Below, piece by piece: positions 5,729 to 40,091 of a stretch of 40,091 bases of DNA (positions are counted from its first letter, which is position 1; every line of letters begins with the position of its first letter). The translations under genes were made by a program, and so were the position numbers. The stretch lies in IMG/VR virus record IMGVR_UViG_3300037840_000197, positions 1-40,091 of that record; one strand, given 5' to 3'. The notes under the pieces were generated by a model. The model searched no databases and had not been told where the DNA came from. It worked only from the letters and a program-made list of their open reading frames with translations. The stretch comes from a virus.

Positions 5729-5980
5729 TGGGAGCATCAGCAGGTGGGATTCTTCGGGCTTGGAGCGATACGCCTCGAAGTACGCATGGAGAAGGTTTTG
5801 CTGGGCTTGGTGGTATTCGAGACTGGCAAGTTGTTCAGCGAATCTCAATTTGTCGCATTCATCCTCGCGGGCTCTGATCGATGCGAACCACAGTATGAGA
5901 CTCGAATTAAGCGGTCCGAAGACCGAGGTGGATCGTCCTTTCGGCCAACCCGGAATGATGTCCCGCGCCTTTAACTTCAT
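5702..5980 (-). CDS. Minus-strand small helical protein (moron-like)
   Basis: This 92-aa frame lies opposite the structural operon. Its 3' end overlaps the gp4-like gene by 27 bp, and its start is 13 bp from the gp10-like gene. The protein has a coherent amphipathic helix (ASIRAREDECDKLRFAEQLA and onward) and a C-terminal hydrophobic stretch, unlike the low-complexity translations of ordinary shadow frames. A TATAAT hexamer at 5989-5994 (minus strand) sits 8 nt before the ATG with no Shine-Dalgarno, as for a leaderless transcript. This looks like an independently transcribed accessory gene. The family is not recognised. Confidence 0.55.
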   Translation of the reverse strand: MKLKARDIIPGWPKGRSTSVFGPLNSSLILWFASIRAREDECDKLRFAEQLASLEYHQAQQNLLHAYFEAYRSKPEESHLLMLPLVLQTPAG

Positions 5981-5994: not shown

Positions 5995-7547
5995 TGCGAT
6001 TCGGATTCTGCGGACCCGCGTACCAGGCTCCATCGCCTCTGGGTGATGCTGAAGCTCTGATCAACTTCTATTTGGAGCAGATGGAATCGCCGAACGCCCG
6101 CACGCCGTTTCTTTTGATCGGCACGCCGGGTCTTTCGATATTTGCCAATCTCTCGGCCGTCGCTGGCGTTGCCTTGCCTTCAGTGCGGGGAATCGAGACC
6201 TTCAGTAATCGGACCTTCGCGGTGGCAGGAACGCATCTTTTCGAATTGACCCAGTCGGGAGCAATCGACTACGGCGGCTTTGGTGGGAATAACAACATCA
6301 TCGACGACGGTCTTCCCGTAACGATGGTGTGCGGCGGAACTGTGGGAGGAAGCTATCCCACGCAAGTGCTGATCGCGAGTGGCGGCACGCTCACCGTGTT
6401 CTCGCTCATCTCGGACACATTCCAGGCGCTCACTACGCCACCGACGAACGTATTGATGGTTGAATTTCTCGACGGCTTCTTCATCGCGCTCAGTCAGGGG
6501 AATACCTGGTCGGTTTCAAATCCCGAAGACGCGACCACCTGGCCAGGCATTTCCGTGGCTCAAGTCTCAGTGTTCTCCGATCAGCTTCTCTCCCTCATTG
6601 TTTCGAATGAACGCTTGTGGGTCTTCGGGGGAAAGCGAGCGGTGGCGTATTACACCTCGGGTTCCCCGCTCTTCCCTTTTGATGTGGCCAGCGGCGGATT
6701 CATGGAAGTCGGAATCCTCGCGCAGTATTCGGTGAAGCGCGTGGCCATGAAAAGCGGAACGACATTCATGTGGCTGGGCGGAGATGAACGCGGCGGAACT
6801 GGCGTGGTCTACGCTGCCAATGGCTATCTTCCGCAGCGAGTTTCTGATCACGGCTTTGAATACTGGATGGCGCAGCAGCCGCAAATCTCGGATGCGGTAG
6901 GAATGGCGCGGCAGGACCAGGGCCACAATTTTTATGATCTCTGGTTCCCCACCGCGAACGCGACGTGGACACTCGATGTCGATCTCGGGAGCTGGGCGCG
7001 GCGGTCGTCCCTTGTGAAAGGCCTACCAGCAGCCCATCTCGGACGTTGTCACAGCTTCAATTTTGCCACGCACCTGGTCGGCGATCGCAATTCCGGAAAC
7101 GTGTACGCCATGAGCACCCAGTATCTCTCGGAAAACACCGCGCCGGGAGTCTTTAACCCCATCGTTCGTACCCGCATCGGCCCGACGATCTCGAACGAAG
7201 GCGGCCAGCTCACCGTTCCCATCAACGAATTTCAGGTGGATTTTGAAACCGGGCTCGGCCCGATGCCGCCACTGGTCGATGCTTTCGGCAATCCTCGCGA
7301 TCCGCAAGCGATGTTCAGTTACTCGGAAGACTTCGGTAAGACGTGGACGCCGGAGCGAATGATCTCCTGCGGCAAGGCGGGACAGTTCAAGAAAGTGGCG
7401 ATCGATCGGCGGCTCGGGAGCTGGCGCAGTTGGACACCGAAGGTCACGGTTTCTGATCCCATCCCCTGGCGCATTGCCGATGCTTATGTGAACGGAACAC
7501 AAGATCAAAAAGAACGCTGGGCGAAGTCGATTGCGAGGGTTAGTTAA
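5994..7547 (+). CDS. gp10-like packaged-DNA stabilisation / tail hub protein
   Basis: This 517-aa protein corresponds by position, length and pattern to P22 gp10 (472 aa), which closes the portal-gp4 stack after packaging. It starts with a Pro-rich strand (CGPAYQAPSPLGDAEALINF) and contains repeated beta-propeller-like blades with Gly/Phe/Trp turns (for example ERLWVFGGKRAVAYYTSG). Near the C-terminus it has the sequence FSYSEDFGKTWTPERM, matching the 'SYSDDGGxTWS' signature of this family, then LGSWRSWTPKVTVSDP. The gene overlaps the following gene by one base (TAATGG). Confidence is high for the family and moderate for the exact role. Confidence 0.85.
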   Translation: MRFGFCGPAYQAPSPLGDAEALINFYLEQMESPNARTPFLLIGTPGLSIFANLSAVAGVALPSVRGIETFSNRTFAVAGTHLFELTQSGAIDYGGFGGNNNIIDDGLPVTMVCGGTVGGSYPTQVLIASGGTLTVFSLISDTFQALTTPPTNVLMVEFLDGFFIALSQGNTWSVSNPEDATTWPGISVAQVSVFSDQLLSLIVSNERLWVFGGKRAVAYYTSGSPLFPFDVASGGFMEVGILAQYSVKRVAMKSGTTFMWLGGDERGGTGVVYAANGYLPQRVSDHGFEYWMAQQPQISDAVGMARQDQGHNFYDLWFPTANATWTLDVDLGSWARRSSLVKGLPAAHLGRCHSFNFATHLVGDRNSGNVYAMSTQYLSENTAPGVFNPIVRTRIGPTISNEGGQLTVPINEFQVDFETGLGPMPPLVDAFGNPRDPQAMFSYSEDFGKTWTPERMISCGKAGQFKKVAIDRRLGSWRSWTPKVTVSDPIPWRIADAYVNGTQDQKERWAKSIARVS

Positions 7548-8086
7548 TGGCGGTGTCGCGTCAGCTACTTGAGACCCTGAATCCTGTGCACTGGGAAAAA
7601 GGCGGAAGCGGCGGCCCGCGTGTCACCTGGCTGCAAGGCTTGAGCGATCTGGTGAATCGGCCGGTTATCAACCGCCTAACCGCAACGACTTCTGCGACGG
7701 CCGTGGTTACCAATGCGGCAGTGCAATCGAGCGGAGTGGGGACCGGACAGCTTCAGCCGAAACGCTATGCCGAATTCACGGTCAAGGCCCGAGTCACATT
7801 CAACATCAATAGCGTCGGGCCTGCTTTCGTCTACGTCTACCGCACGCTGGGCGCGATTCCAGCCAACGGCGCAGCTCCGAATGCTGGGGACGTCGCAATC
7901 GGCGGAGATGCCTTCGTCGGCGGACCAACTTCAAACGGAGTCAACCAGGTGGGGACGCTGTCGTTCCTCGACTCAGGCCTCGACACCAGCAAACGCTACC
8001 GCTACTACCTCGCAGTGCTCGGCCCGAACGGAAACACCTTGAACCTGGTCAACCAATCTCAGCTTTTAGTGATGGAGCGCTCCTAA
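7547..8086 (+). CDS. Probable minor structural protein, beta-rich
   Basis: The 179-aa protein starts at the ATG overlapping the stop of the gp10-like gene (TAATG). It is beta-strand rich with many small residues (LTATTSATAVVTNAAVQSSG, then RYAEFTVKARVTFNINSVGPAFVYVYRT), consistent with a jelly-roll or fibre-like fold. In P22 this place holds the gp26 tail needle, but no trimeric coiled coil is visible here, so a needle assignment is not supported. Most likely a virion protein; exact role unknown. Confidence 0.65.
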   Translation: MAVSRQLLETLNPVHWEKGGSGGPRVTWLQGLSDLVNRPVINRLTATTSATAVVTNAAVQSSGVGTGQLQPKRYAEFTVKARVTFNINSVGPAFVYVYRTLGAIPANGAAPNAGDVAIGGDAFVGGPTSNGVNQVGTLSFLDSGLDTSKRYRYYLAVLGPNGNTLNLVNQSQLLVMERS

Positions 8087-8087
8087 C

Positions 8088-8996
8088 ATGGGATTCCTGG
8101 CAGCACTGCCCTCGATCATTGGGGGTGTCGGATCGCTCTTTGGAGGCTTGTTTGGCTCAAACCAGACGGGCAAAGCTACTCAGCAGTACGTTCAAGGGCT
8201 TCAGCAGGCGCAGCAATCGCTCGAAGGCTCGGAACAGCAGGGCCTTCAGAACTATTCGCCGTATCTTCAAGCTGGCAGCACCGCAACCCGCAGCCTGGGC
8301 GATCTCCTGGGTACACCAGGGCAAGGCTTACTCACCCCGTGGACGCAGCAGTTCACCGCGCCGACGGCTGCCGAAGCCGCAGCAACGCCTGGTTATCAGT
8401 TTCAGTTGCAGCAGGGCGAGAACGCGATGCAGAACTCGGCCGCTGGGCAAGGATCGCTCCTCACCGGGCGCACCCTCGCCGATCTCAACAACTACGCGCA
8501 AGGCACGGCCTCGGCCAATTACCAGAACACTTTCAATAATTCGCTCACCCAGTACCAGTCGGCCTACAACACGTTCTTGAACAATCAGAACAACACCTAC
8601 AGCCGATTGATGGGCATGAGTGGTGAAGGCCTGCAGGCAGCGGGCGGAGCGGGAAATCTGATCTCGAATGTCGGCGGCGACATCGCTTCGCTTTACGGAC
8701 AGAAGGGTGCAGCACAAGCGGCAGGAACGATTGGTTCGGCGAATTCCATTAATTCCATCTTCCCCGGCATTGCAAATTCCCTAAGCGGGCTTTCGCTTTC
8801 GAGTCTACTGGGCAATACAAACTCAGTTCCCAGCTATCTTGGCGCACCAACTGCGCCCGGCTCCGGATTCGGGCTGGGGGCGCTGCCGCCGGCAGGAACG
8901 GGAGGCCCAACGAGTGGGCCTTTCATGTCGGCGGGTGGCAGCGGCGGACCGCTGTTGAATCAGTGGTTGCTGAGCAACCTTAACGGGGGAGGATAG
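8088..8996 (+). CDS. Probable DNA ejection / internal virion protein 1
   Basis: The 302-aa protein begins with a Gly-rich hydrophobic segment (SIIGGVGSLFGGLFG) typical of podovirus DNA-transfer proteins, followed by Gln/Ala/Asn-rich helices with QQ and TYQN repeats and a Gly/Pro-rich tail. It resembles the short family of 'DNA transfer' proteins that sit after the head-closure genes and are ejected with the genome. The next two genes share the composition, giving a three-protein set as in P22 (gp7, gp20, gp16). The frame is clean and starts 1 bp after the preceding stop. The assignment comes from composition and place. Confidence 0.65.
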   Translation: MGFLAALPSIIGGVGSLFGGLFGSNQTGKATQQYVQGLQQAQQSLEGSEQQGLQNYSPYLQAGSTATRSLGDLLGTPGQGLLTPWTQQFTAPTAAEAAATPGYQFQLQQGENAMQNSAAGQGSLLTGRTLADLNNYAQGTASANYQNTFNNSLTQYQSAYNTFLNNQNNTYSRLMGMSGEGLQAAGGAGNLISNVGGDIASLYGQKGAAQAAGTIGSANSINSIFPGIANSLSGLSLSSLLGNTNSVPSYLGAPTAPGSGFGLGALPPAGTGGPTSGPFMSAGGSGGPLLNQWLLSNLNGGG

Positions 8997-15977: not shown

Positions 15978-16762
15978 GAAATCTCTTAATAGTTGTGCTT
16001 GCGCTCTGCTCGTCATCGTTCGCGCAGTTGGGCGGGAAGGCGGCGGCTGGAGGCAAGGCGACGTTTGGAGGGGGGGGCGCGGGTGTTACCCCCGATCAAA
16101 TCTCCGGCATTCAGGCGTGGTTTGCAGCGGATAGCGGCACCAGTTGCGGCGGCGCATGCTCCAATGGGAATACTCTAACTCAGTGGAATGACAAGTCCGT
16201 AAATGCCGACAATCTTGCTTCCGGGGCAAGCTGTTCCACTCTTCCGACTTTTGCAAGTTCGCAGATCAACGGCAAGCCAGCGATCAAATTCAACGGGTCT
16301 TCGCAGTGTATTCAGCTCGTGAGTTCTATCACCCTGACCACAGCTTCAACGGTGTTTGCGGTTATAGACGATGTTTCCATCGCGGCTAAAGGATCGTTCT
16401 TCAGCGGCGCATCAGGATCGCTTGTCTACTGGAGCGCGCCCACAAAAGAGCAGGGCGCGGACAATGCGGCGACGGTTTTGCTTGGGAACGGCACCGCGGC
16501 GGCGGATACGAGCTGGCATCAGATCAATGAAACCTACAACAACACAACCGTGACCTTCCGATTGGGCCGCGCGACTGATGGAAGTGCTTCCCCCTCGTCA
16601 ACTCTCACTGCCGTCAATACGATTGTCGGGGCGAATGCCAGCTCGGGACCGGGGGAATGGTTCAACGGCTATATTGCCGAACTGATTATCTACAACCGGG
16701 TTTTGAACGGAACGGAAATCGGAGAAGTGGAAGCGTACCTGAATGGCAGGTACGGCTTATAG
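15974..16762 (+). CDS. Secreted-type protein with LamG/concanavalin-like fold
   Basis: The 262-aa protein starts with GTG at 15974, which overlaps the upstream stop (GTGA). The signal peptide VRNLLIVVLALCSSSFAQ is followed by a Gly-rich linker. A jelly-roll lectin-type domain covers residues about 45-262: ISGIQAWFAADSGT near its start, then TLTQWNDKS, and the ending WFNGYIAELIIYNRVLNGTE followed by VEAYLNGRYGL. That ending is the standard LamG-like/concanavalin A-like signature. It probably binds surface sugar. The last 73 bp overlap the 3' end of the convergent acyltransferase gene. Confidence 0.8.
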   Translation: MRNLLIVVLALCSSSFAQLGGKAAAGGKATFGGGGAGVTPDQISGIQAWFAADSGTSCGGACSNGNTLTQWNDKSVNADNLASGASCSTLPTFASSQINGKPAIKFNGSSQCIQLVSSITLTTASTVFAVIDDVSIAAKGSFFSGASGSLVYWSAPTKEQGADNAATVLLGNGTAAADTSWHQINETYNNTTVTFRLGRATDGSASPSSTLTAVNTIVGANASSGPGEWFNGYIAELIIYNRVLNGTEIGEVEAYLNGRYGL

Positions 16763-17838
16763 CGCAGGATTGGCGACTCGAAATATTTCCAAGAGAGTGC
16801 CGCGATTGCGACCGTGAGGCCAGTGGCCGCGACACCGAGAAGCAGATTGCTGCCGAGAAAGTGCGACAGTCCGACGTACGTTTCGAAATGAACCAAGTAC
16901 ATGGTGTAGCTGATCGTCCCGATATACAGAATTGGCCTGACCCGTAAAAAGGAAAGCGTGGAATGGCCTTCCAGTCGGACGCAGGACGCAACGATGCAGC
17001 CAAACAGCAACGCAATGAGGCTATATCCAAAAATGCTGAAAAGCTCAGTGGATCGAACTTCAGTGCCGCGAAATAGACCGCAGCGTGCCGAGAGCCAGAT
17101 GGTGGCAACCGACAGCGGAAGAATTGGAGCCAAGAAGGCCCACTTCGAAATGGCGGGGCGGGCCTTCAGAAGAAGTGCAATGCAGGCCCCAACAGCCAAC
17201 GTGTCAAAGCGCGGGATGAATCCAACGCCTTCCCTCCAGTCAACCGTGTGAGTAAGGCCACGAAGCGCCGGGCAGAGAAACAATGGCGCGATGGCAAATA
17301 CCCCAATCCACTTCTTTGAAGTCTTCAAAACAATCGGCGCCCACAGAAGATAGAACAACTCTTCGACGGCAAGTGACCAGTAAACCCCTATTCCAAGGCT
17401 GTACAGCGAAAAGTCTGCGGGGTGAAATGGCTGCGACGAAAGATCGAACGGGGCGCGACCTAGTAAACGCTGAAAGACAAGATGAAGTGAGATCCCCTTC
17501 CGGATAGCCGGGAGGAAAAACAAAGGTTGCAGCCAGCTCGAGCTGTCGAAGCCTTCGCGATGAACGAACACGAGGACCGCAATTATCGCAAGCACGGCAT
17601 AGTAAGGAGGGAAGATCCGCAGAATCCTTCGCCAGTAGAACTTGCGGTAAGGCGTCGGATCGCTGCGAAGTTCAAGAAGGATGCCGGTAATTAAGAACCC
17701 CGAAATGACGAAGAACAGATCCACGCCGACCCAGCCCATCGTAAACCAACGCGAGTGCGGGGTAAAGTGCAGCAACAGCACGGCCGAGATTGCCAGCGTC
17801 CGCAAGCCGTCGAGTTCGAATATGCGCCCCTTGCTCAT
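16690..17838 (-). CDS. Acyltransferase 3 family membrane O-acyltransferase (OafA/YrhL-like)
   Basis: The 382-aa membrane protein has the family signatures in order: ELDGLRTLAISAVLLLHF (with the catalytic-type His), GWVGVDLFFVISGFLITG, YWRRILRIFPPYY, VYWSLAVEELFYLLW and SYTMYLVHF, with about ten hydrophobic segments. Enzymes of this family transfer acetyl or other acyl groups to sugars of lipopolysaccharide or exopolysaccharide. In P22-like phages such genes change the O-antigen and so block superinfection (lysogenic conversion). It is on the minus strand inside the fibre cluster and is preceded by a tiny gene with an ATGA overlap, so it is a transcriptionally separate 'moron'. Its ATG lies at 17838. 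All core motifs are intact. Confidence 0.93.
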   Translation of the reverse strand: MSKGRIFELDGLRTLAISAVLLLHFTPHSRWFTMGWVGVDLFFVISGFLITGILLELRSDPTPYRKFYWRRILRIFPPYYAVLAIIAVLVFVHREGFDSSSWLQPLFFLPAIRKGISLHLVFQRLLGRAPFDLSSQPFHPADFSLYSLGIGVYWSLAVEELFYLLWAPIVLKTSKKWIGVFAIAPLFLCPALRGLTHTVDWREGVGFIPRFDTLAVGACIALLLKARPAISKWAFLAPILPLSVATIWLSARCGLFRGTEVRSTELFSIFGYSLIALLFGCIVASCVRLEGHSTLSFLRVRPILYIGTISYTMYLVHFETYVGLSHFLGSNLLLGVAATGLTVAIAALSWKYFESPILRYKPYLPFRYASTSPISVPFKTRL

Positions 17839-24509: not shown

Positions 24510-24943
24510 AGACAAACGGCGCGTTAAGGGCTGACACCCCGCGCCGTCTGAAGGACGAAAGAGCCTATTTCTATGCCCCTTCACGCGCAAGCGTACCCCA
24601 ATTCGGAAACATCGTCTAGCGGAATTTCTTCCGTATCCTCGCGTGGTCACGCCGCGAGTTGTCCATCCCCAAGAGAAGAATGTGTTTGTGGTTTCTCCGC
24701 CCGCTTTTGGGCGGAGGTTCGAGCGAGAGCGGAGTTGAGTGCCGTGGGTTTACCAGAATCGAGAGCGGGCAACGTGTCTTCCACCCGTTTTCACGACCCG
24801 CGACTTATACCGGCAGGCTCCCGGCACTCAATTGCGTTTTCGCCCGGTGAAACCCTGCCGGGTATGGACGTAAAAAACGGGGAAGGCCGGGGAGCGGCAG
24901 AAATGCCGATTCCCGAAGGGTGTTTAGCTTTTGATTTCTTTAC
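24510..24943. other. Intergenic region rich in inverted repeats; candidate replication origin
   Basis: This 434-bp stretch has no convincing gene. It carries at least six inverted repeats: 24516-24523/24540-24547 (8 bp perfect, with inner GGG/CCC), 24620-24624/24629-24633 (5 bp), 24638-24643/24653-24658 (6 bp), 24695-24702/24709-24716 (8 bp, loop of 6), 24735-24744/24822-24831 (10 bp perfect) and 24807-24817/24854-24865 (11 bp, one bulge). It ends at the rolling-circle initiator gene. Hairpin-rich DNA upstream of a Rep gene is where plus origins and lagging-strand origins of rolling-circle plasmids are found. Confidence 0.55.
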
Positions 24944-24951
24944 TTGATACC
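24935..24951 (+). other. Candidate double-strand origin nick site (CTTGATA)
   Basis: The sequence TTTCTTTACTTGATACC contains CTTGATA (24943-24949), the core recalled for nick sites of the pC194/pUB110 plasmid family and of phiX174, cut between G and A. Here the cut would fall between 24946 and 24947. The pyrimidine tract ahead of the core also resembles those plasmid origins. The TTG of this core is the probable start codon of the Rep gene. Confidence 0.6.
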
Positions 24952-26026
24952 AGTGCATAAATCGACAGATTCAGAAAATGCGCAATACCCCGGCTCTGGG
25001 GTCTCCGCCCAACCTTTTTTGGGCAACGAATTTCGTCTCATCGATCGCTATGAATTGCAGGGAGAACTTGTGCAAGCCCTGGAAAACACGACACATCACC
25101 GGCATCTGGCGGAAAAGGTTCACAACTGCCACAAGAAGTTTCGCCGCAAGCGATGTGACGGCAACCACGATTGGGCGACAGCGGACAACTCGTGCTCGGT
25201 TCGCATCTGTCCCCATTGCTCACATCGGCGCTCGAAGATTCTGGCAGCGCGGATGCAGACTTTTCTCGTTGGTAAGACCGAATTGCGGTATGCGGTGTTG
25301 GCCGAACGCAGCTCGGAGAATTGTGAGGCGGGAATTCTCTCGCTGTGGAAGGCGTGGACTTCGCTTCGTCGATCAGTGTGCTGGAAGCGGAAAGTGAAAG
25401 GCTGCATTGCGGTGCTCGAAGTCACCTACAACGCGAAAGACAAGACGTTCCATCCCCACCTGAACGTGCTCATGGAAGGCGAGTATTTCCCTTTCGAAGA
25501 ACTGAACCAGGCGTGGATCAAGGCAACTGAAGGCAATGGGCAAACGTCATTCATTCGTGCGGCGGATGAAAACACGGTGTTCGAGTTGATTAAGTACGTC
25601 ACTAAAATTGCGGACTTGCTTGAGCACACGGCGGCGCTCGATGAATTTCTCTCCGCGGTTTACGGCTCTCGAATCGTGCGCACCTATGGCACCTTTCGCA
25701 GCATGAAAACCGAGGACGAAGAAAATCCCGGTGAAGAGTGTCCCGACTGTGGATCGACTTGCATCGTGGACCTGGGGCGCGTTCGCACGAATCAACTCGC
25801 CTTTGATTTCGAGAAGCAGGTTTTTCGGGTGCGGGGATCGCCGCCGGCCGTGGCTTTGATTGCAGCGATGGAATTTAATCCTTGGAAATTTGCGATGGAT
25901 GGTTTCCGGCGCCCGGATTCAGTAGGAATCGCGCTTGAAGCTCGCAGCCGCGCCACCCGCTACGAAAAGCAGGTTCGCAAGATGTTTCGCACGAGCAAAG
26001 AGAGTTTGCGGCAACCAGCCGCATAA
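24944..26026 (+). CDS. rep: Rolling-circle replication initiator, pC194/pUB110 type (Rep_1, HUH endonuclease)
   Basis: The 360-aa protein would nick one strand at the origin, join covalently to the 5' end through a tyrosine and start rolling-circle synthesis. Family motifs are in order: a cysteine motif CSVRICPHCSHRRSK (residues 84-97), the metal-binding HUH-type motif FHPHLNVLM (His170 and His172), and ELIKYVTKIAD (Glu214, catalytic Tyr218, Lys221, Asp224), the E…KYxxK motif. A further CPDCGSTC (266-273) could be a second zinc ribbon. The length fits the family. The start is TTG 24944, inside the presumed nick site; GTG 24953 is an alternative. SSB-like and J-domain genes follow. Helicase and polymerase would come from the host. 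Confidence 0.9.
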   Translation: MIPVHKSTDSENAQYPGSGVSAQPFLGNEFRLIDRYELQGELVQALENTTHHRHLAEKVHNCHKKFRRKRCDGNHDWATADNSCSVRICPHCSHRRSKILAARMQTFLVGKTELRYAVLAERSSENCEAGILSLWKAWTSLRRSVCWKRKVKGCIAVLEVTYNAKDKTFHPHLNVLMEGEYFPFEELNQAWIKATEGNGQTSFIRAADENTVFELIKYVTKIADLLEHTAALDEFLSAVYGSRIVRTYGTFRSMKTEDEENPGEECPDCGSTCIVDLGRVRTNQLAFDFEKQVFRVRGSPPAVALIAAMEFNPWKFAMDGFRRPDSVGIALEARSRATRYEKQVRKMFRTSKESLRQPAA

Positions 26027-26038
26027 GGAGCAACACCA

Positions 26039-26392
26039 ATGGCAACAGCACCAACCACCATGAAGCCCCGGCGCGAGATGCAGGAAGTCAAAGCGCCGGA
26101 ACAATTTCAATTCACCAAACCCGGTCAGACGGTTGAAGGCGTTCTGATTTCAATCGAGCCAGTCGAGATCAAAGGCAAGCCCGCGATCGAGTATCTATTC
26201 GTGCGCGAGAATGGCGATCGATTCACTTGCCTCGGCACCAACGATCTCAATAAAAAACTTCACCCCGGCCAGATCGGTCACATGCTGGCCATTCGCTATG
26301 AGAGCGACGATGCCTCGTTTCAGAAGCAGGGGCAGAGTCCGATGAAAGTTTTCAAGGTGTTGGTAGGCAAGGAAAAGGAACCGGGTTTTTGA
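26039..26392 (+). CDS. OB-fold-like protein, possible ssDNA-binding protein
   Basis: The 117-aa protein follows Rep by 12 bp, with AGGAGCAA as ribosome-binding site. The pattern FTKPGQTVEGVLISIEPVEI, then PAIEYLFVRENGDRFTCLGT and GHMLAIRYESDD, gives alternating strands of a small beta-barrel with exposed aromatic and basic residues, as in OB-fold single-strand binding proteins. A rolling-circle phage needs to coat displaced single strands, and the gene sits directly after Rep. This is a structural guess; no SSB C-terminal acidic tip is present. Confidence 0.5.
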   Translation: MATAPTTMKPRREMQEVKAPEQFQFTKPGQTVEGVLISIEPVEIKGKPAIEYLFVRENGDRFTCLGTNDLNKKLHPGQIGHMLAIRYESDDASFQKQGQSPMKVFKVLVGKEKEPGF

Positions 26393-27349: not shown

Positions 27350-27648
27350 TGCACGCTGAACTCCTGAACCTCTACTACTTCGCCTACTCGATTGTGAAGG
27401 TGCTCTGGATGACGGGCTTGGGGGAGGGTTGTCTTTTTGTCTACGCGGCATCGCGCTGGGAGAGGGCATTCGGGGTCCCTGCCCGCAGTCAGGGAGAAAG
27501 GTGGTTAAAGTGTTGGAGCAAATTGAGCAGACCGCAAGAGTTTGTCACGAGGCCAACCGCGCTTATTGTCAGACCATCGGCGACGACTCGCAGCCGTCTT
27601 GGGATGACGCCCCAGAGTGGCAAAGGGATTCCGCCATTAAGGGCGTGA
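27349..27648 (+). CDS. Possible small membrane protein overlapping the next gene
   Basis: The frame begins at ATG 27349 (TGATG with the upstream stop) and codes for 99 aa. The first 45 residues (LLNLYYFAYSIVKVLWMTGL and on) are hydrophobic and plausible as a membrane segment. The C-terminal half overlaps the RyR-domain gene out of frame and is Arg/Thr/Ser-rich, unlike a natural domain. It would fill an otherwise empty 150 bp. A shorter real product is possible only through a frameshift, so confidence is modest. Confidence 0.4.
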   Translation: MHAELLNLYYFAYSIVKVLWMTGLGEGCLFVYAASRWERAFGVPARSQGERWLKCWSKLSRPQEFVTRPTALIVRPSATTRSRLGMTPQSGKGIPPLRA

Positions 27649-27884
27649 AGTTTCACATCGCGAACCTCTCTGTCGGAACGAAGCCCTTGCCTTCTTCGAG
27701 TCATGAATCGTGGCTGGAAGAGAAACGCGCCGAGGGATGGAGGTACGGACCCGTAAAAGATGCGGAGAAGAAAACGCATCCTTGTTTCATGCCGTATGCC
27801 GCTCTGCCGCTTGAACAGCGGTTGAAAGACTACATCTTCGCAGCGATTTGCGAAGCATTCTGGATGGCGCGGACGACGATATAA
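27501..27884 (+). CDS. RyR-domain protein
   Basis: The 127-aa protein is read from GTG 27501, with AGGGAG just upstream. An earlier ATG at 27429 has no ribosome site. After a helical N-terminus, the segment SSHESWLEEKRAEGWRYGPV, then DAEKKTHPCFMPYAALPLEQ and LKDYIFAAICEAF, matches the RyR domain: His-x-x-Trp, Gly-Trp-x-Tyr-Gly-x-x-x-Asp, Lys-x-His-Pro, Pro-Tyr and a final helix. Bacterial and phage RyR proteins have been suggested to bind nucleotide-derived ligands in defence or counter-defence. The function here is unknown. Confidence 0.8.
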   Translation: MVKVLEQIEQTARVCHEANRAYCQTIGDDSQPSWDDAPEWQRDSAIKGVKFHIANLSVGTKPLPSSSHESWLEEKRAEGWRYGPVKDAEKKTHPCFMPYAALPLEQRLKDYIFAAICEAFWMARTTI

Positions 27885-27889
27885 GACTC

Positions 27890-28576
27890 ATGAGCGCAAC
27901 CTTCACTCTCGATTACACCGACGAATCTAGTGAACGTCTCGCCGCTGCTGTGACTTCCTACGGCCTCGGAACCCGCTCCTACAACGCCAGCCCAGAGAAA
28001 CACGAAGTAGATCGCCAGCGCAGGGCCGCAACCGAAGCGTTCGAATCCGCGCCGCGCGAACAAATCGAAGTCCCCCCGATGTGCACCTGCTCGCAGCGTA
28101 CCTACCCGCACGAACTCGACGTGCACAGCCATCTTCCTTCCGAGGCATGGAATCCGCAGAATCGTTTTCGTTGGCCCTGGTCGCTCATGCTCCTCGAAGA
28201 ATCCGGCCAGGCTATTCTCGAATTTGCCGTCATCCTCCCCATATTCCTCATGCTCTGCTTTGGCATGATCGACATGCAAATGTGCCTGCAGGATGTAGCC
28301 AACGTGAACTACATCGTGAACGAAGTTGCCCGCTGTCAGGCCATCGCGGGAACACTTTGCTCCGACGCGCCGAACACACCGAGAAGTTATGCCGATCTTC
28401 AGGCGCGGAACCTGCACATGAAGACCGCCTACTTGACGCTAGTCTCGGCGAGCTGCAACGTGAATTCCTGCACTGCGACCATTTCCTTTAAGTACCACGC
28501 GCTGGGGATCTGGTTCCCCGGCATCACCTTTGTGAGAACTGGGACGGCGGCTTTGGCTGGGCCGCCGACTGGATAG
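27890..28576 (+). CDS. TadE-like pseudopilin domain joined to a phage-type N-terminal domain
   Basis: The 228-aa protein is read from ATG 27890. The first 100 residues are soluble, with MCTCSQRTYPHELDVHSHLP and a RWPWSLML motif (about residue 98). Residues 103-135 carry the TadE/TadG pilin signature: EESGQAILEFAVILPIFLML, then CFGMIDM, i.e. Gly-x-x-x-x-Glu-Phe just before a membrane helix. The C-terminal 80 residues have Cys pairs and a GIWFPGI motif. TadE-like proteins are minor pilins of tight-adherence pili. One in a tailed phage is unusual, and it lacks the normal short leader. The combination looks like a fusion of two genes. Confidence 0.75.
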   Translation: MSATFTLDYTDESSERLAAAVTSYGLGTRSYNASPEKHEVDRQRRAATEAFESAPREQIEVPPMCTCSQRTYPHELDVHSHLPSEAWNPQNRFRWPWSLMLLEESGQAILEFAVILPIFLMLCFGMIDMQMCLQDVANVNYIVNEVARCQAIAGTLCSDAPNTPRSYADLQARNLHMKTAYLTLVSASCNVNSCTATISFKYHALGIWFPGITFVRTGTAALAGPPTG

Positions 28577-30371: not shown

Positions 30372-30475
30372 GAATTCCCTCCACTTGGTATTTTTCTAGC
30401 GCCGCCGAGCTTTTCGTCGATGTCCTTGCGCGATAAGAGGCGGTTCGCTAACTCGATGTGATCACGCGATTCAAT
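30368..30475 (-). CDS. Possible 35-aa protein with ATT start
   Basis: Between the ATPase stop and the next gene a frame reads ESRDHIELANRLLSRKDIDE then KLGGARKIPSGGNS, natural-looking helical protein, and its stop overlaps the following GTG. The only possible start is the rare ATT at 30475. A real gene here is plausible, but the start codon keeps confidence low. Confidence 0.3.
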   Translation of the reverse strand: MESRDHIELANRLLSRKDIDEKLGGARKIPSGGNS

Positions 30476-31715
30476 CTCCGGCTACTTCATCCTGCCTTGG
30501 TCGATCCATGATGGCGACCATGGGTTGTGGTCCGCGCTTCGGTAGACTATCGGACGCCATCAGTTGCATGAGTGTCATCCCGTGTACGCCGGGATGGAGC
30601 ACGTCTTCGGTTGCGAGATGGAGGAGCCCAACCAGTGAGTTGTGATCGGTGGGGATTTCCTTCTGCTCGATGCGCTTGCGGGCGCTTCGCATGATCAGCA
30701 CGTTGCGCTCGATGGTTTTGGTCGGGACTTCCTCTTCCATGCGCGACCAGGAGATGAAGCCATTTAAGTATTCAAGGGTTAAGTTGCGGAACATGGCGTC
30801 GAGCTTGGATCGCTTTTCGCCGCCGGGGAAGCACATGTTAAGTAGGGCGTCGAGCTCCTCCAGCAAACCTTTGCGGTCGGCCTGTTCGCGAGCCCAGTCG
30901 GTCTTGCCGGAAACGATGAGTTGTTTATCGGAGACGTTCGGGCGCAGGGCTTGGGTGAGAGCGATGCGAAATTCGATGTGCGGGCGGAAGTGATCGAGCA
31001 CGGTTCTGTACTGCCCCGGCTTGTATTCTTTGGCGAAGTTTTTTCCCTCGAACACAAACTGTTCGTTGCTGATGACCGAATCCGCGTCTTTCACCACATC
31101 GCAGACGTACTCCATCGCGGTCTTGCCGCGTAGCAATCCCATGATTCGGCGCTTGCGTCGGCGCATCTCACATTCCAGGTTGCAGTCGTAACCAAAATTC
31201 TGCCCGCCTCCCGCGTTGAATTTGGAGTCGCCCTGGATGAGCTTCATCTCGCCCGTTTCCGCGTCCTCGATGTTCTCCCAGTGATAGCCCAGTCGTCCGC
31301 ACGCGATGGCGTGGAAGTCGCCGAGCTGGAACGGTTTGACGAAGTTATTCCACTGGTTCATCAGTTGAGCGCGGCGGTCGAACGGCAGGTTCCCGTTTGC
31401 GTAGGCGAACGCGGCGAGCCCCGTGGTCCACGGCACGGTTAAATCGTCGGCTACATAGACCGAACCTTTTTCGGCGCGGAAGCGGTCGAGGCTGGTTTGC
31501 AGCGCGGCAATTGAATCCCCTGCCGTCATCACCAGGGGAACTTTCTCCCGGTCGAAGATGTGAACCTTCCAGGACGGCCAGCGGTCACTCGAATCGAAGA
31601 CGTGTACTGGCGCTGAGTTGCAATACTCTTTTGAGATGCCGACGGCGAGCTGCGCCATCGTGCAAGTTTTGCCGGAACCATTAGTTCCGTCGGTTGATAG
31701 TTTGAGGTACGACAT
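30471..31715 (-). CDS. Phage P-loop ATPase
   Basis: The 414-aa protein starts at ATG 31715 with AAGGAG upstream on the minus strand. The Walker A motif is DGTNGSGKTCTMAQLA (residues about 9-24); a Walker B-like YVADDLTVPW is near residue 92. The overall plan resembles phage nucleotide-binding proteins of the AAA_24/RecA-like type, often found near replication or recombination genes. Later segments have a charged RRRKRRIMG stretch. It could be a DNA-handling ATPase. It is not a recognisable replicative helicase because typical DnaB or UvrD motifs are absent. It is the largest gene of the minus-strand operon. Confidence 0.75.
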   Translation of the reverse strand: MSYLKLSTDGTNGSGKTCTMAQLAVGISKEYCNSAPVHVFDSSDRWPSWKVHIFDREKVPLVMTAGDSIAALQTSLDRFRAEKGSVYVADDLTVPWTTGLAAFAYANGNLPFDRRAQLMNQWNNFVKPFQLGDFHAIACGRLGYHWENIEDAETGEMKLIQGDSKFNAGGGQNFGYDCNLECEMRRRKRRIMGLLRGKTAMEYVCDVVKDADSVISNEQFVFEGKNFAKEYKPGQYRTVLDHFRPHIEFRIALTQALRPNVSDKQLIVSGKTDWAREQADRKGLLEELDALLNMCFPGGEKRSKLDAMFRNLTLEYLNGFISWSRMEEEVPTKTIERNVLIMRSARKRIEQKEIPTDHNSLVGLLHLATEDVLHPGVHGMTLMQLMASDSLPKRGPQPMVAIMDRPRQDEVAGD

Positions 31716-31938
31716 GGCTGTGATCTCCTTGTGGTTGGAATTTGTGGGACTGTTGAAAATCGTGAATGGCTTGCTCGGCGCGTCTAAATTCCTCACGCGC
31801 GTGCGAGAGCATGCTGAAAACTGTGTCGTAGTCTTGCGCTTCAAAAAACAGAAAGATGGTGTCAATCGCGGCCACGGCCCGGTAAGCCGCGAGATCGCGA
31901 TCTTCGAGGAGCCTCCGGAATTCGCTGAGGTTATCCAC
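31681..31938 (-). CDS. Small helical protein upstream of the ATPase
   Basis: The 85-aa protein starts at GTG 31938, which overlaps the stop of the upstream membrane protein, and its last 35 bp overlap the ATPase start. It has an all-helical pattern (LLEDRDLAAYRAVAAIDTIF, then DYDTVFSMLSHAREEFRRAE) and could dimerise. Tight overlap on both sides suggests translational coupling with the ATPase. Function unknown. Confidence 0.6.
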   Translation of the reverse strand: MDNLSEFRRLLEDRDLAAYRAVAAIDTIFLFFEAQDYDTVFSMLSHAREEFRRAEQAIHDFQQSHKFQPQGDHSHVVPQTINRRN

Positions 31939-32068
31939 GGCCAGTTCTCCTTTTCGTGAAGTGATGCACTACAACCCAAACGGCTGGGTAGACTGCCAGA
32001 AAGAAGATCAGCCCGGTGAAGCAGCCGACCCAGAACAAACAGCGGACGAAGAGCCAGACGTTACTCAT
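31931..32068 (-). CDS. Tiny one-helix membrane protein
   Basis: The 45-aa protein begins at ATG 32068 inside the end of the upstream gene and ends with TAA sharing bases with the next GTG. Residues about 4-36 are almost entirely hydrophobic (LFWVGCFTGLIFFLAVYPAV), giving one strong membrane helix, and the C-terminus is basic (TKRRTGRG). Orientation is probably C-terminus in the cytoplasm. The role is unknown. Small membrane proteins of this type occur in phage superinfection immunity and envelope sensing. Confidence 0.55.
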   Translation of the reverse strand: MSNVWLFVRCLFWVGCFTGLIFFLAVYPAVWVVVHHFTKRRTGRG

Positions 32069-33679: not shown

Positions 33680-33699
33680 AAGTTGATTAATTTTTGATT

Positions 33700-34230
33700 A
33701 TGGATGCTCTTTCAAAAGAGGAATTCTTCGCATTGATGGCTGAGGCGCACGAGCACGACCGGCGCACCTGGCTGATGATGGTGCTGCATTTCTGGCATGG
33801 CGGCCGCAACTCGGAAATCATTAATCTCACGCGAGATAACTTCGTCGGCCGGCACGTTATTTTCAATCGCGGCAAGCACTCGCTGCCCTGCAAACAGGAG
33901 CTGGTCGAGCACAAAAACCCGCTCTTCAATGAGCGCCCGGCAGTGTTTGATTACCTCCGCACTTTGGGCAAGAATCAAAAACTCTTCCCGGTGAGCCGGT
34001 GGACCTATTGGCGACACATGAAGAAGGTCGCGCTGGCCGCCGGCATCGATCCAGTGAAAGCGAAAACCACGGTCTTGAAGCATTCCCTCTGCACTTATAT
34101 GTATGAAAATGTTGGCCCCAACTTCGTGCAGCGCCGTGCCGGCCATCGCTCGGGAAATTCCACATTGAAATATGGGACGGTGCAGGAAGCGCAAGTCGAC
34201 AGCCTAATTGTGGATGCTGTAGGACTCTGA
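33700..34230 (+). CDS. Small tyrosine recombinase (integrase-like, catalytic domain only)
   Basis: The 176-aa protein starts at ATG 33700 (a TTG at 33694 is two codons upstream). It has the catalytic-domain motifs: HGGRNSEIINLTRDN with the first Arg (about residue 36), TVLKHSLCTYMYE where the usual H-x-x-R is HSLC, AGHRSGNSTLKYGT with the second His and nucleophile Tyr. It lacks the N-terminal DNA-binding domains of full integrases, and the second catalytic Arg appears replaced by Cys. That resembles small recombinases of the FimB/FimE size class or a reduced phage integrase. It may catalyse integration or inversion. Two perfect inverted repeats lie just upstream. Confidence 0.85.
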   Translation: MDALSKEEFFALMAEAHEHDRRTWLMMVLHFWHGGRNSEIINLTRDNFVGRHVIFNRGKHSLPCKQELVEHKNPLFNERPAVFDYLRTLGKNQKLFPVSRWTYWRHMKKVALAAGIDPVKAKTTVLKHSLCTYMYENVGPNFVQRRAGHRSGNSTLKYGTVQEAQVDSLIVDAVGL

Positions 34231-34920: not shown

Positions 34921-35318
34921 GTGAGTCGAAAAAGAAACGCGGTGGTAAGCGTGCGAATGCCGGACGTAAGAAACGCGAGCGACTACCGGAGCAGATCGAC
35001 GCTCGTGGCACGCAAGGTCAGAACCGGGCAGCGAGAATCATCGACCAGTTGAATGAAGCGCCAAAAGGCAAATACGACGCTGATAGCAAGACCTGGTCGG
35101 GTGACTCCTACGAGATCCAGCGCTTTCGTCAGCTTGACGACTCCGCTCATTCTCTCGACCTCCGTAAGTGGCTTTACGACAAAGCCGACGGCAAAGCTGT
35201 GCAGACCGTCAACCACCTGCATGACAAACCCATCGAGATGAATGTCAACGTCTCGATGGCGGAACTGGTTCGCAAGGTTCGCCAACGCAAACAGGACTAT
35301 GAACGCAGTCGCAGCTAG
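34917..35318 (+). CDS. terS: Terminase small subunit (TerS-like)
   Basis: The 133-aa protein starts with GTG at the stop of the upstream gene. It sits immediately before TerL, overlapping it by 20 bp. The basic N-terminus (KKKRGGKRANAGRKKRERLP) and the helix-turn region LRKWLYDKADGKAVQTVNHL, with the following conserved KPIEMNV motif, match a common phage TerS pattern (the 'YDKxDGKxxQTV' stretch). TerS recognises the packaging site on phage DNA and loads TerL. Assignment is by pattern plus neighbours. Confidence 0.8.
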   Translation: MSESKKKRGGKRANAGRKKRERLPEQIDARGTQGQNRAARIIDQLNEAPKGKYDADSKTWSGDSYEIQRFRQLDDSAHSLDLRKWLYDKADGKAVQTVNHLHDKPIEMNVNVSMAELVRKVRQRKQDYERSRS

Positions 35319-36852
35319 CTTCCCCGATCTGGAGCGCAACCCCTTGGCCGCTGTCCAAGCTGAGCTCGCCGAATACGCGGACGATCCCCTCGGCTTCGTA
35401 ATGGTTGCCTATCCGTGGGGAGAGGGCGAGCTGGCCGGCGAAGCTGGGCCGCGCACGCATCAGAGAAAGTTCCTGCGCGAGCTGGGCGCACACCTGCAAA
35501 ACCCTCTTACGCGCCACAAGCCATTTCGCAAAGCGAAGAGCTCCGGCCACGGCATCGGAAAGACCACCGAAGTTGCATGGCTCGCCCACTGGGGGATGTC
35601 CACCTTCGAAGACACGAAAGTGATCTTCATGGCCGGCACGGGTGATCAGCTCAAAACCAAAACCCAGCCCGAAGTAGCGAAGTGGTTTCGCCTCGGCGCA
35701 AACAGTGATCTATTTGAAGTCAACGTGCAATCGATCAAGGTGCGAGAAGATGGCCATGAATCCACCTGGCGCGCGGATTTCACCACCTGGTCGGAAGAGA
35801 ATCCACAAGCATCCGCCGGCGCCCACAATAAAGGCAAGCGCCTGATCATCATCTATGAGGAAGCATCTGGCATTCCGGATGTGATCTGGAAGACGCAGGA
35901 AGGCGCGCTCACCGACGCGGACACGGAAATCATTTGGATTGCGATCAGCCAGTGCACGCGCTCGGAAGGCTATTTCTATGAAGCAGTTTTCGGAAGCCAG
36001 CGCCATCGCTGGAATCCGGAAGTCATCGACTCCCGCACCGTCGAAGGTGTGAACGTCGAAGAGATCAATGAATCGATCGCAATCTATGGCGATAATTCCG
36101 ATCATGTGCGTGTTCGCTATCTCGGCCTCTTCCCTCTCGCCGGCGGCGGCAAGTTCATCGATCTCGAACTGGTGCAAAAAGCCCAGCTCGCGCCGGCCGT
36201 CGCGCTCTCGGATGATGCCTTGGTGTGCGGAGTCGATTTTGCCTATGGCGGCGCAGACGATAACGTAGTGCGCTTCCGCAAAGGCCTCGATGCGCGATCG
36301 ATTCCCTCGATCAAAGTGAAAGGCGAATTCACCCGAGATCCGGCAGTGATGAAGGGCAAGCTGGCCGACGTACTCACGAAGACCTATGACGGCGAAAAAG
36401 TGTCGATGATGTTCGTCGATGGCTCCGGAGTCGGCGGCAACGCCGGCGCGATCGTCGCTGGTTTGCGATTGCTCGGCTTTCAGAACGTGCAGGAAGTGAA
36501 CTTCGGCCACGATGCCATCGATCCCCACTACGCCTACCGCAGAGATGAGATGTGGGGCCGCATGAAGGATTGGATGCGCGAAGGCGGCGCGATCGACGAC
36601 GACCACGAGCTCGCCGCTGACTTACAAAAACCAGTACTGATCTCTGATTTGAAGCAGCGGGTCAAGCTCGAACCGAAAGATGCAATGAAAAAGCGCCTGG
36701 CGAAAATGGGAACGGATTCTTCCTCTCCCGACGATGGAGACGCGCTCGCCTTGACCTTTGCGTTGCCAGTGGTGGCTATCAAACCGTTGCGCGTTGGTGC
36801 ACCAACCCTCAGTGTCGCCGATCGCATGGGCGACGGGGGATGGATGGGCTAA
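35299..36852 (+). CDS. terL: Terminase large subunit
   Basis: The 517-aa motor-nuclease drives DNA into the head and cuts it. Motifs: SGHGIGKTTEVAW (Walker A, residues about 82-94, Lys88), RLIIIYEEASGIPDVIW (Walker B with paired Glu), and the nuclease Asp residues in GVDFAYGGADDNVV, MMFVDGSGVGGNAG and SSPDDGDALALTF. ATG 35299 is preferred over ATG 35242, which overlaps TerS further. Overlap with TerS by 20 bp and with the next gene by TAATG supports one operon. The length is ordinary for the family. Headful packaging, as in P22, would fit a circularly permuted genome. Confidence 0.95.
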   Translation: MNAVAASFPDLERNPLAAVQAELAEYADDPLGFVMVAYPWGEGELAGEAGPRTHQRKFLRELGAHLQNPLTRHKPFRKAKSSGHGIGKTTEVAWLAHWGMSTFEDTKVIFMAGTGDQLKTKTQPEVAKWFRLGANSDLFEVNVQSIKVREDGHESTWRADFTTWSEENPQASAGAHNKGKRLIIIYEEASGIPDVIWKTQEGALTDADTEIIWIAISQCTRSEGYFYEAVFGSQRHRWNPEVIDSRTVEGVNVEEINESIAIYGDNSDHVRVRYLGLFPLAGGGKFIDLELVQKAQLAPAVALSDDALVCGVDFAYGGADDNVVRFRKGLDARSIPSIKVKGEFTRDPAVMKGKLADVLTKTYDGEKVSMMFVDGSGVGGNAGAIVAGLRLLGFQNVQEVNFGHDAIDPHYAYRRDEMWGRMKDWMREGGAIDDDHELAADLQKPVLISDLKQRVKLEPKDAMKKRLAKMGTDSSSPDDGDALALTFALPVVAIKPLRVGAPTLSVADRMGDGGWMG

Positions 36853-37530: not shown

Positions 37531-37664
37531 TGAGGATGTTAAATTTCGACCTGGCCAACCCTGCCGATCTTCTGGCTGCAAAAATGTATTTGCTCGCTCA
37601 GTGGGGAGAAGAATATAACGCTGGGTTGAGATTCGAGATGCTTTACCTCGGCTTGGATTACTGA
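37530..37664 (+). CDS. Tiny helical protein
   Basis: The 44-aa protein starts at ATG of TAATG and ends at TGATG with the co-chaperonin gene, filling the gap completely. The sequence NPADLLAAKMYLLAQWGEEY then LRFEMLYLGLDY is helical with aromatic residues. Position in a coupled chain of small genes is the main support. Function unknown. Confidence 0.5.
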   Translation: MRMLNFDLANPADLLAAKMYLLAQWGEEYNAGLRFEMLYLGLDY

Positions 37665-38101
37665 TGCCACAATCCCGCGAAGCCATCAAGCACGCCCCAG
37701 TCTCAAGCGAAGTCTGGCGCGAGCAACGTACCCAGCGCGGCGGGCTTTGGTTTGACCCGCTGAAGATCAAACCGCTCGGTGATCACATTCTGGTGGTTCT
37801 CGACGATGAAACTCCGCCCAGCGAAACGATTGTTGCGCCGGACATCGCACGGAACCGCGAAATCGGAACTCGCATCGGTACTGTGATCGCAGTCGGACCT
37901 GGGAAGTGGCGCGAAGCTGGCAAAAATAGCGAGAGCTGGATGCTCAACCCTCTGCGTCGCAAGCCGATGACGCTCAAAGTTGGCGATCGCGTGACCATCG
38001 GCCACTACTCCGACTGGGAATCGTGGTTCTCGGATTACGAAGGACGGGGTAAGAACGTGGTGCTGTGTCAGGAAGCGGACGTGCGAGGGGTGCTGCGATA
38101 G
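37664..38101 (+). CDS. GroES/Cpn10-like co-chaperonin
   Basis: The 145-aa protein has the GroES fold pattern: IKPLGDHILVVLDDE (first strand with conserved Pro-Leu-x-Asp), the mobile-loop region ETPPSETIVAPDIA, RIGTVIAVGPGKWRE, then LKVGDRVTIGHYSD and NVVLCQEADVRGVL at the end. It is longer than GroES (about 97 aa) because of an N-terminal extension and a WMLNPLRRKPM insertion. Phage co-chaperonins such as T4 gp31 enlarge the GroEL cage for coat protein folding. A location between TerL and portal fits that job. Whether it replaces or joins host GroES is unknown. Confidence 0.85.
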   Translation: MPQSREAIKHAPVSSEVWREQRTQRGGLWFDPLKIKPLGDHILVVLDDETPPSETIVAPDIARNREIGTRIGTVIAVGPGKWREAGKNSESWMLNPLRRKPMTLKVGDRVTIGHYSDWESWFSDYEGRGKNVVLCQEADVRGVLR

Positions 38102-38660: not shown

Positions 38661-40091
38661 ATGCCCGTAACCCTTTCATCGAAATCTAAGAAGCGAGGCG
38701 GTAAGTCGTCCGCCGACGAGGATCTGATCGCGACTTCGCTGAAGCGATTCAAGATCACCGCTGAAGCCGAGTCGGAATCGCGGCGGCAGGGGCTCGAAGA
38801 CCTGAAGTTCTCAATCGGCACCGGGCAATGGGATGACGCTGTAAAAGCCAGCCGGGAAATCGAAGGTAAACCCTGTCTAACCATCAACCGCGCGCCGTCG
38901 TTCTTACGCCAGTACACCGGTGAAGAACGCCAGCACCGTCCCGCGATGCTGGTGAGCCCGGTCGGAAACGGCGCGGACCTGCAAGTCGCGAAGATTCATC
39001 AGGGCGTTTTGCGTCACATCGAAGTGGCCAGCCGAGCTGACACCACTTACGACAGCTCTTACGACATGGGGATGCGGATTGGCTGGTGTCCCTGGCGCAT
39101 TAAGGTCGATTACGTTTCGGAAACAGGCTTCGACCAGGAGCCGCGCATCGAGGCAATCGAGAATCCCTTCGCCGTCTATCTCTCGCCGGTTCGCCGTCCG
39201 GATGGCACCGATCCTCTGTGGGGACATGTGATCCGTGATTTCCAGAAAGACGAATACCTCACGGAATTCGGCAAGACTGAGCTCGCGCGGCTGAATTTCC
39301 CTAGCCAAATGGGGAATGCAGAGCCCGGCTGGGTTACGAAAGACGGTGCACGAGTAGCGGAATACTGGTGGATTGAGCTCACCCCGGCGATTCTCTATCA
39401 CCTCGATGACGGATCGATCAAATTAGGTGATGAAATCACCGAAGAGGAGCGCAAGAACGCGGGTGGGAACAAACGGGAAACCGTGATTCGCAAAGTGCAC
39501 TGCATCAAGCATGACGCCATGCAGGTGCTCGCGCGCTACGAGTGGCTGGGTAAGTACATCCCCCTTCCTGAATTCAACGGCGTGCGCCTGAACGTCGATG
39601 GAAAAATCTATCGTGCCGGAATGATCCGTGACTATCGCGATGCGCAACGGATTTATGACTTCATGGTGACGCGTGCGGTCGAGCAAGTGGATATGGTCTC
39701 GAAAGACCCGTTGTGGGTGGCCGACGAGAACGCGCAATACGGCGAAGACTATCGCCAGATGAGCCGGAAAAACTTCTCCCACGTCTTTCATAAGGCATAC
39801 GATTCGCAGAACCGTCCATTACCTGTCCCCTCGCGGGCTAATCGCGAAGCTCCGATTCAGGCCATGCAAGCCCTGATCCAGCAGGCCGATTACGACATGA
39901 AGGCAGTCGTCGGAATCTACGGGTCTTCACTCGGCGAGGAAGCTGGAAATACCCAAGAATCCGGGCTCGCCATTCTGAGCCGACGCCAGCAGTCCGATAC
40001 CGGGATGATCTCGTGGCACGACAAGCTGAATGAAGCCATCGCCTGGCAGGGGAAGATACTTCTCGATTTGTGGCCGAAATACATTTCGCGG
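38661..40091 (+). CDS. P22-type portal protein, N-terminal part (continues at 1-880)
   Basis: The gene starts at ATG 38661 and runs off the end of the window; the rest is at 1-880. Family signatures include FSIGTGQWDDAVKASREIEG, followed by KPCLTINRAPSFLRQYTGEE, WRIKVDYVSETGFDQEPRIE, and later DKAYDSQNRPLPVPSRA-like text (here HKAYDSQNRPLPVP) and VGIYGSSLGEEAGNTQESGL. Joined, the protein is 727 aa, the length of P22 gp1, and it shares its layout (stem/wing, crown, helical barrel). It works with TerL during packaging. It is preceded by the zinc-ribbon gene at 10 bp. High confidence. Confidence 0.95.
   Translation, partial: MPVTLSSKSKKRGGKSSADEDLIATSLKRFKITAEAESESRRQGLEDLKFSIGTGQWDDAVKASREIEGKPCLTINRAPSFLRQYTGEERQHRPAMLVSPVGNGADLQVAKIHQGVLRHIEVASRADTTYDSSYDMGMRIGWCPWRIKVDYVSETGFDQEPRIEAIENPFAVYLSPVRRPDGTDPLWGHVIRDFQKDEYLTEFGKTELARLNFPSQMGNAEPGWVTKDGARVAEYWWIELTPAILYHLDDGSIKLGDEITEEERKNAGGNKRETVIRKVHCIKHDAMQVLARYEWLGKYIPLPEFNGVRLNVDGKIYRAGMIRDYRDAQRIYDFMVTRAVEQVDMVSKDPLWVADENAQYGEDYRQMSRKNFSHVFHKAYDSQNRPLPVPSRANREAPIQAMQALIQQADYDMKAVVGIYGSSLGEEAGNTQESGLAILSRRQQSDTGMISWHDKLNEAIAWQGKILLDLWPKYISR
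39965..40091. repeat. Terminal direct repeat, right copy (circular join)
   Basis: These 127 bases equal positions 1-127 exactly. Collapsing the two gives a 39,964-bp circle with an intact portal frame. Confidence 0.95.

Follow-up and report, generated by a model that had tools for sequence, protein, structure and literature searches.

Most known rolling-circle initiators of the Rep_1 kind come from small plasmids or from small single-stranded DNA phages. Phage phiX174 has its origin within the initiator gene A, where it is cut in the sequence CTTGATA. Among tailed phages with double-stranded DNA, those of the P2 type are thought to initiate replication by means of an HUH nickase (gpA) and to use host replication proteins. 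CTTGATA is also the reported nick site of Rep_1 proteins (PMC10378824), and some inoviruses carry Rep_1-like proteins (PMC6668415). In the Rep protein of plasmid pC194, Tyr214 is the nicking residue, Glu210 favors hydrolysis when the round terminates, and Glu142 is a metal ligand (PMC5703833). Rep_1 initiators, their nick site, and tailed phages that replicate by rolling circle (P2) are already known.

The locus described here (Table 1) departs from each of these systems. Its genome is that of a tailed phage with double-stranded DNA, whereas phiX174 and the inoviruses are small phages with single-stranded DNA. P2 gpA (Phage_GPA) belongs to a different HUH family from the phage Rep; moreover, unlike in P2, the virion modules that accompany this Rep are of the P22, GpA, and HK97 types, and the cassette includes an SSB-like gene. 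With the pC194 and pUB110 plasmids, the phages share the Rep_1 domain, the aligned tyrosine, the glutamate four residues before it and the metal-binding glutamate, and a nick region of the form TTTCTT..CTTGATAC on the rep strand. Unlike the plasmid proteins, the phage Rep has asparagine in place of the second HUH histidine, and its nick region lies at the start codon rather than roughly 130–210 nt upstream. The phages also lack a hairpin around the nick, and their tailed genomes of ~40 kb carry an OB-fold, SSB-like gene of their own.

The locus is likely to be a tailed-phage replication cassette composed of a Rep_1 single-tyrosine nickase, a double-strand origin at the start of rep, and an OB-fold protein that binds single-stranded DNA. 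The phages that carry this Rep form a family of soil tailed phages that appear to copy their DNA as small plasmids do, through a single nicking enzyme cutting beside the start of its own gene, which would be unusual among phages of this size and type. What is new is a Rep_1 cassette as the apparent sole initiator in several kinds of ~40-kb tailed phages, where the metal motif is a variant and the nick region adjoins the start codon.

Table 1. Coordinates and strands of the features discussed, in window numbering
Feature	Position	Strand	Basis or remarks
Structured stretch before the element (candidate leader or accessory to dso/sso)	24510–24936	+	RNA fold, z −4.43
Conserved 22-bp stem, left arm	24724–24745	+	91.9% of cells paired
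Conserved 22-bp stem, right arm	24821–24842	+	Loop of ~75 nt in the window
Conserved DNA element TCTTTACTTGATACCAGTGCATAAATCGACAGAT, candidate double-strand origin	24937–24970	+	Overlaps rep start; 27/34 columns invariant
Predicted nick core CTTG^ATA	24943–24949	+	Cut predicted at 24946/24947; pUB110 likeness
rep	24953–26026	+	HUH-type initiator of the Rep_1 family; 357 aa when started at GTG, 360 aa at the alternative TTG 24944
Rep catalytic residues			By alignment: E156, H167/H169 (N171), E211, Y215
117-aa OB-fold protein, putative ssDNA-binding partner of Rep	26039–26392	+	AF2, OB-fold matches, position
Terminase	35242–36852		

Rep_1 proteins in tailed phages

The window, meaning the whole stretch of DNA that was analyzed, is an entire virus record of 40,091 bases. 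Because its first and last 127 bases (positions 1–127 and 39965–40091) are identical, the assembly is circular and the genome measures 39,964 bp. A terminal repeat of this same length also occurs in three relatives (G002, G003, and G005), and the portal gene of the window spans the circular join. Virion genes match phrog_156, phrog_283, phrog_8865/648, phrog_578, and phrog_598 in PHROGs, which stand for a portal, coat, scaffold, gp10-like closure, and ejection protein of the P22 type. These matches confirm the earlier description as a P22-like tailed phage, and the record holds the complete genome in a circular assembly.

Several other genes of this genome deserve mention in their own right. 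Between the terminase and the portal lies a GroES-like (Cpn10) gene (37664–38101, +), and a short tyrosine recombinase of 178 aa that consists of the catalytic domain only is encoded at 33694–34230 (+). A RyR-domain protein (27429–28576, +), followed by a TadE-like protein, is unusual for a phage early region. On the opposite strand, within the tail-gene region, an ORF of 382 aa (16690–17838, −) was judged by eye to resemble a membrane acyltransferase, whose product possibly modifies the host surface.

The same Rep is encoded on ten further IMG/VR contigs, with identities of 38–64%. The cassette occurs together with P22-type packaging (the window, G007, and G013), with a lambda GpA-type terminase (G002, G004, and G008), and with HK97-type genes (G003).

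The original prediction described an open frame of 360 aa (24944–26026) with the motifs CSVRICPHC, FHPHLNVLM, and ELIKYVTKIAD, all of which are present, and named a profile search as one check on its assignment to the Rep_1 family. That search gives 61.9 bits against Pfam Rep_1 (PF01446; cut-off 33.2), and the family is matched by 11 of 11 members, that is, by the window and its ten relatives. The only other Pfam match of the window protein is the IS91 zinc-binding domain (Zn_Tnp_IS91), which lies 0.9 bit above its cut-off and is likewise matched by all 11 members. PHROGs holds no family for these Reps, and a sequence search of the PDB returned chance matches only. The AF2 model of Rep, built from 11 sequences, is too weak (mean pLDDT 48.8) to establish an HUH fold: HUH proteins such as SIRV1 ORF119 (Z 7.2) and a geminivirus Rep (Z 6.7) are among its best matches, but so are unrelated folds of the ferredoxin-like kind.

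More can be said from an alignment of six phage proteins with seven plasmid proteins (pC194 RepA, pUB110 Rep, and five others), in which residues of the phage Rep are numbered from GTG 24953. Fourteen columns are invariant, including E156, H169, E211, K214, and Y215. The phage residues Y215, E211, and E156 align with Y214, E210, and E142 of pC194, and the spacing of the glutamate four residues before the tyrosine is kept. In the plasmid motif PH-U-H, the second histidine is the second metal ligand. The corresponding phage motif is HPHLN, which retains the first HUH histidine (H169) but has N171 in place of the second in 11 of 11 members. To judge from its position two residues upstream of H169, H167 could substitute for the missing histidine. 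Because asparagine replaces the second HUH histidine in all phage members, the active site of this Rep is a variant. Of the HUH motif and single tyrosine originally ascribed to the protein, the tyrosine is upheld but the HUH pair is noncanonical, and we therefore claim Rep_1 membership as a variant only.

Proteins of this kind had been expected to be rare in such phages, an expectation supported by the absence of close relatives of the window Rep among 50,697 phage records. When pUB110 and pRGF00045 were used as queries against phage records, Rep_1-like proteins were recovered from inoviruses, satellites, and a microvirus, along with fragments in Streptococcus thermophilus phages. These queries found one intact Rep_1-like gene in a tailed phage, the ‘protein Rep’ of Listeria phage LIS04 (181 kb). 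There, Rep sits among unrelated genes with no SSB-like gene annotated beside it, and shows no sign of being a sole initiator. Searches of bacterial genomes found no relatives of Rep or of the OB-fold protein.

The conserved element at the start of rep

Ten distinct phage loci, whose Rep proteins are only 38–75% identical, share an element of ~34 bp (TCTTTACTTGATACCAGTGnATAAnTCGACAGAT) that aligns without gaps and is invariant in 27 of 34 columns. Within the codons of the element, invariant residues use a single codon in three of three columns, compared with 2 of 70 in the remaining gene. Judged from these sequences, the element is under selection at the DNA level, as expected of an origin, though much the same pattern would be seen at an operator or a translation signal. 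When IMG/VR was scanned with a 17-base pattern (TTTACTNGATACCAGTG), 11 contigs were found, nine of which encode Rep exactly at that point.

The candidate origin does overlap the beginning of the rep gene, although not in the manner first proposed. The original prediction took the TTG at 24944, within the nick core, as the start codon. In three relatives (L004, L021, and L017) the core reads CTAGATA, such that the TTG is replaced by TAG, and in a fourth (L028) it reads GTTCATA and the TTG is missing. A GTG is found at the position of 24953 in 11 of 11 members, with the frame open to the end of rep. Since four of the ten distinct loci have TAG or no TTG at this place while GTG is universal, we assign the start to GTG 24953 and reject the TTG. 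The accompanying idea that nicking occurs at the gene’s own first codon is not borne out, since the predicted nick lies ~7 nt before this GTG. There is no clear Shine-Dalgarno sequence for rep, and scans for sigma-70 promoters and terminators around the gene revealed nothing convincing.

CTTGATA is present at 24943–24949, as had been noted, but it is uninformative when taken alone. The window contains four copies where 2.3 are expected, which is no better than chance, and the sequence is altered in the four loci mentioned above. We therefore rejected CTTGATA by itself as evidence. The claim of a plasmid-type nick region instead finds its support in the longer nick region of pUB110 (TTTCTTATCTTGATAC), a 16-mer that matches positions 24935–24950 at 14 of 16 bases. 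This is the sole site in the window within three mismatches of the 16-mer, with 0.06 expected. Plasmid pUB110 carries its 16-mer upstream of rep and on the rep strand, and close versions are present in pC194, pRGI00953, and pSTEG007. The most conserved half of the phage element lies 3′ of the predicted cut whereas the CTTG half varies, and for this reason the exact cut at 24946/24947 is placed by inference. A hairpin around the predicted nick is not conserved among the relatives.

Upstream of the element, the 434-bp gap (24510–24943) folds better than 100 of 100 shuffled sequences, in agreement with its earlier description as rich in hairpins. An Rfam search of the window returned no family. 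The 22-bp stem within this region is found in eight of the ten distinct Rep phages and in one further phage (L041, discussed below), and is absent from two (L021 and L016) that retain the element. Its loop measures 69–75 nt across relatives, and the stem-loop is located 108–304 nt upstream. Pairing holds for 91.9% of cells, compared with 34–44% when the arms are slid, and three pairs are changed on both sides. Small ORFs overlap part of the stem, and their reading frame differs from one relative to another, so it is the stem rather than a protein that seems to be conserved. The stem-loop may act as an origin for the second strand or as a leader that controls rep.

These observations also bear on a different explanation, in which Rep is indeed the initiator but the 34-bp element chiefly serves to control rep, as its translation start, operator, or promoter, and the true nick is made at another place, such as the stem-loop region. 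The start codon does lie within the element, the CTTG side of the element varies among relatives, and a conserved stem-loop is situated upstream at the distances given above. Furthermore, binding of RepU at the double-strand origin of pUB110 also silences repU (PMC5703833), so the roles of origin and control site can coincide. We nevertheless consider this explanation unlikely, because the pUB110 nick region finds only this one match in the window, the element extends into codons without synonymous change, unlike the remaining gene, and the two phages that lack the stem-loop keep the element.

Neighboring genes and the proposed course of replication

A replication origin at rep would be accompanied by the gene for the 117-aa protein directly downstream. 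AF2 models this protein (pLDDT 82) as an OB fold of five strands and a helix. The top Foldseek rows are rich in OB folds that bind single-stranded DNA (Teb1, RPA, POT1, LEF-3, and PrgE), the best E-value being a weak 3e-3, and the comparison with PRD1 P12 gives a modest VIA-align Z of 6.0. The OB gene follows rep in relatives too. In one of them (L019), a canonical SSB ending in DEDIPF (5445–5885, +) comes directly after rep and replaces the 117-aa protein, which is a stronger argument for a role in binding single-stranded DNA than the structure scores are. From the fold, the place after rep, and this replacement, we infer that the 117-aa protein binds single-stranded DNA.

Searches for DnaB_C, DNA_pol_A, and Prim-Pol gave no match in eight genomes of Rep phages, and Pfam identified no further replication protein among 35 nonstructural ORFs of the window. 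The predicted lack of a polymerase, a primase, and a DnaB-type helicase is thereby upheld for the DnaB, Pol A, and Prim-Pol families. Unrecognized replication genes are possible among the unannotated ORFs, one example being the ATPase-like gene at 30471–31979 (−). This ORF encodes 502 aa with a Walker-A-like GTNGSGKT and has a weak match to phrog_1366 (unknown function); its product is a possible ATPase that could act in replication or recombination.

GC skew had been put forward as a further check, with a switch anticipated near 24.9 kb. We computed it for eight genomes treated as circular, with rep set to position 0 and with detrending. The minimum falls ~0.2–5.1 kb upstream of rep in seven of the eight (281 bp in the window). 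Just after rep, the skew is positive in all eight genomes and is the highest of all eighths in six, and it tends to fall with distance. A minimum near rep is thus present, but it is confounded with the position of gene modules, and unidirectional rolling-circle replication does not predict a change of sign. A change of sign marks two-way replication; strand displacement would be matched by a decay from rep. Because module position is confounded with distance from rep and the genomes are related, we reject the skew as proof and take it to lend no more than weak support to an origin near rep.

P22- and lambda-type terminases usually need concatemers. This property invites another explanation, which is that Rep serves plasmid-like prophage maintenance or a minor pathway, while lytic replication proceeds by host initiation recruited by an unrecognized phage protein. 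Many ORFs of the window are without assignment, an integrase-like gene is present, and E211, the counterpart of the terminating residue of pC194, is kept. The eight genomes contain no helicase or polymerase of the tested families, however, the nonstructural ORFs of the window include no other replication protein, and the cassette of Rep and the SSB-like gene is conserved across virion types, all of which make this account improbable.

If the locus is a replication cassette, as we favor, Rep would bind the element (24937–24970) and cut the + strand in CTTG^ATA beside the start of rep, acting through Y215. Host enzymes would extend the 3′ end, with the OB protein covering the strand that is displaced. 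The upstream stem-loop may provide the start of the second strand or the control of rep, and Rep would end the round with E211. Recombination or run-through would be needed in addition, because a terminating cycle of the pC194 type would not supply concatemers. Counting against the cassette reading are the asparagine at the second HUH histidine, the variable CTTG, the lack of a conserved hairpin at the nick, the weak model of Rep, the need for concatemers, the absence of a clear Shine-Dalgarno sequence, and the possible presence of unrecognized replication genes.

Exchange at the rep slot

Another phage of the P22 type (L041) has the same stem-loop and OB gene flanking a different gene (1510–2676, −), which encodes an initiator of the Rep_trans family (PF02486; 30.3 bits against a cut-off of 29.6) in the rep slot. 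Such a replacement of one family of rolling-circle initiators by another is what would be expected of a replication slot. That Rep is instead the IS91-like transposase of a mobile element inserted in these phages, rather than a replication protein, is scarcely credible and we reject this identity: although the zinc-binding domain narrowly passes its cut-off and recurs in every member, and although such transposases are related to the pUB110 family according to the title of a cited study (Mendiola and de la Cruz 1992, cited in PMC5714925), the NCBIfam IS91 model yields 14.2 bits against a cut-off of 125, Pfam detects the zinc domain only and no transposase catalytic domain, and the gene keeps a fixed slot beside the SSB-like gene across phage types, a slot that can hold Rep_trans.

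Returning to the replication cassette, a broader proposal can be made, which we regard as possible and hold tentatively. A distinct Rep_1 subfamily, marked by the shifted metal motif HPHLN, may be the sole initiator in several lineages of ~40-kb tailed phages. It would nick the DNA a few nucleotides ahead of its start codon, with a dedicated SSB as partner, and the large double-stranded genome would be copied through displacement of full-length single strands in phages with terminases that usually need concatemers. The slot would accept Rep_trans, and plasmid replicons would be swapped as modules; this last part of the proposal is drawn from the acceptance of unrelated initiators by the slot.

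In these phages, the Rep_1 protein is the only recognizable initiator, which makes it testable whether large phages with double-stranded DNA can live on plasmid replicons. It also raises the questions of how the displacement of a 40-kb strand is managed and by what route unit-length products come to terminases that usually require concatemers. The HUH variant and the predicted nick site next to the start codon add something new for enzymology and for the control of rep.

Two observations concern the DNA upstream of rep in relatives. In L003, a HerA-like ATPase (DUF87) is encoded at 6872–8716 (+), ~1.3 kb upstream of rep, and could be a translocase for the Rep cassette. Low-complexity repeats (ADLAYLAYLADLAY...) occur at the C-terminus of the protein encoded upstream of rep in L003 (8949–9572) and L004 (7629–8444).
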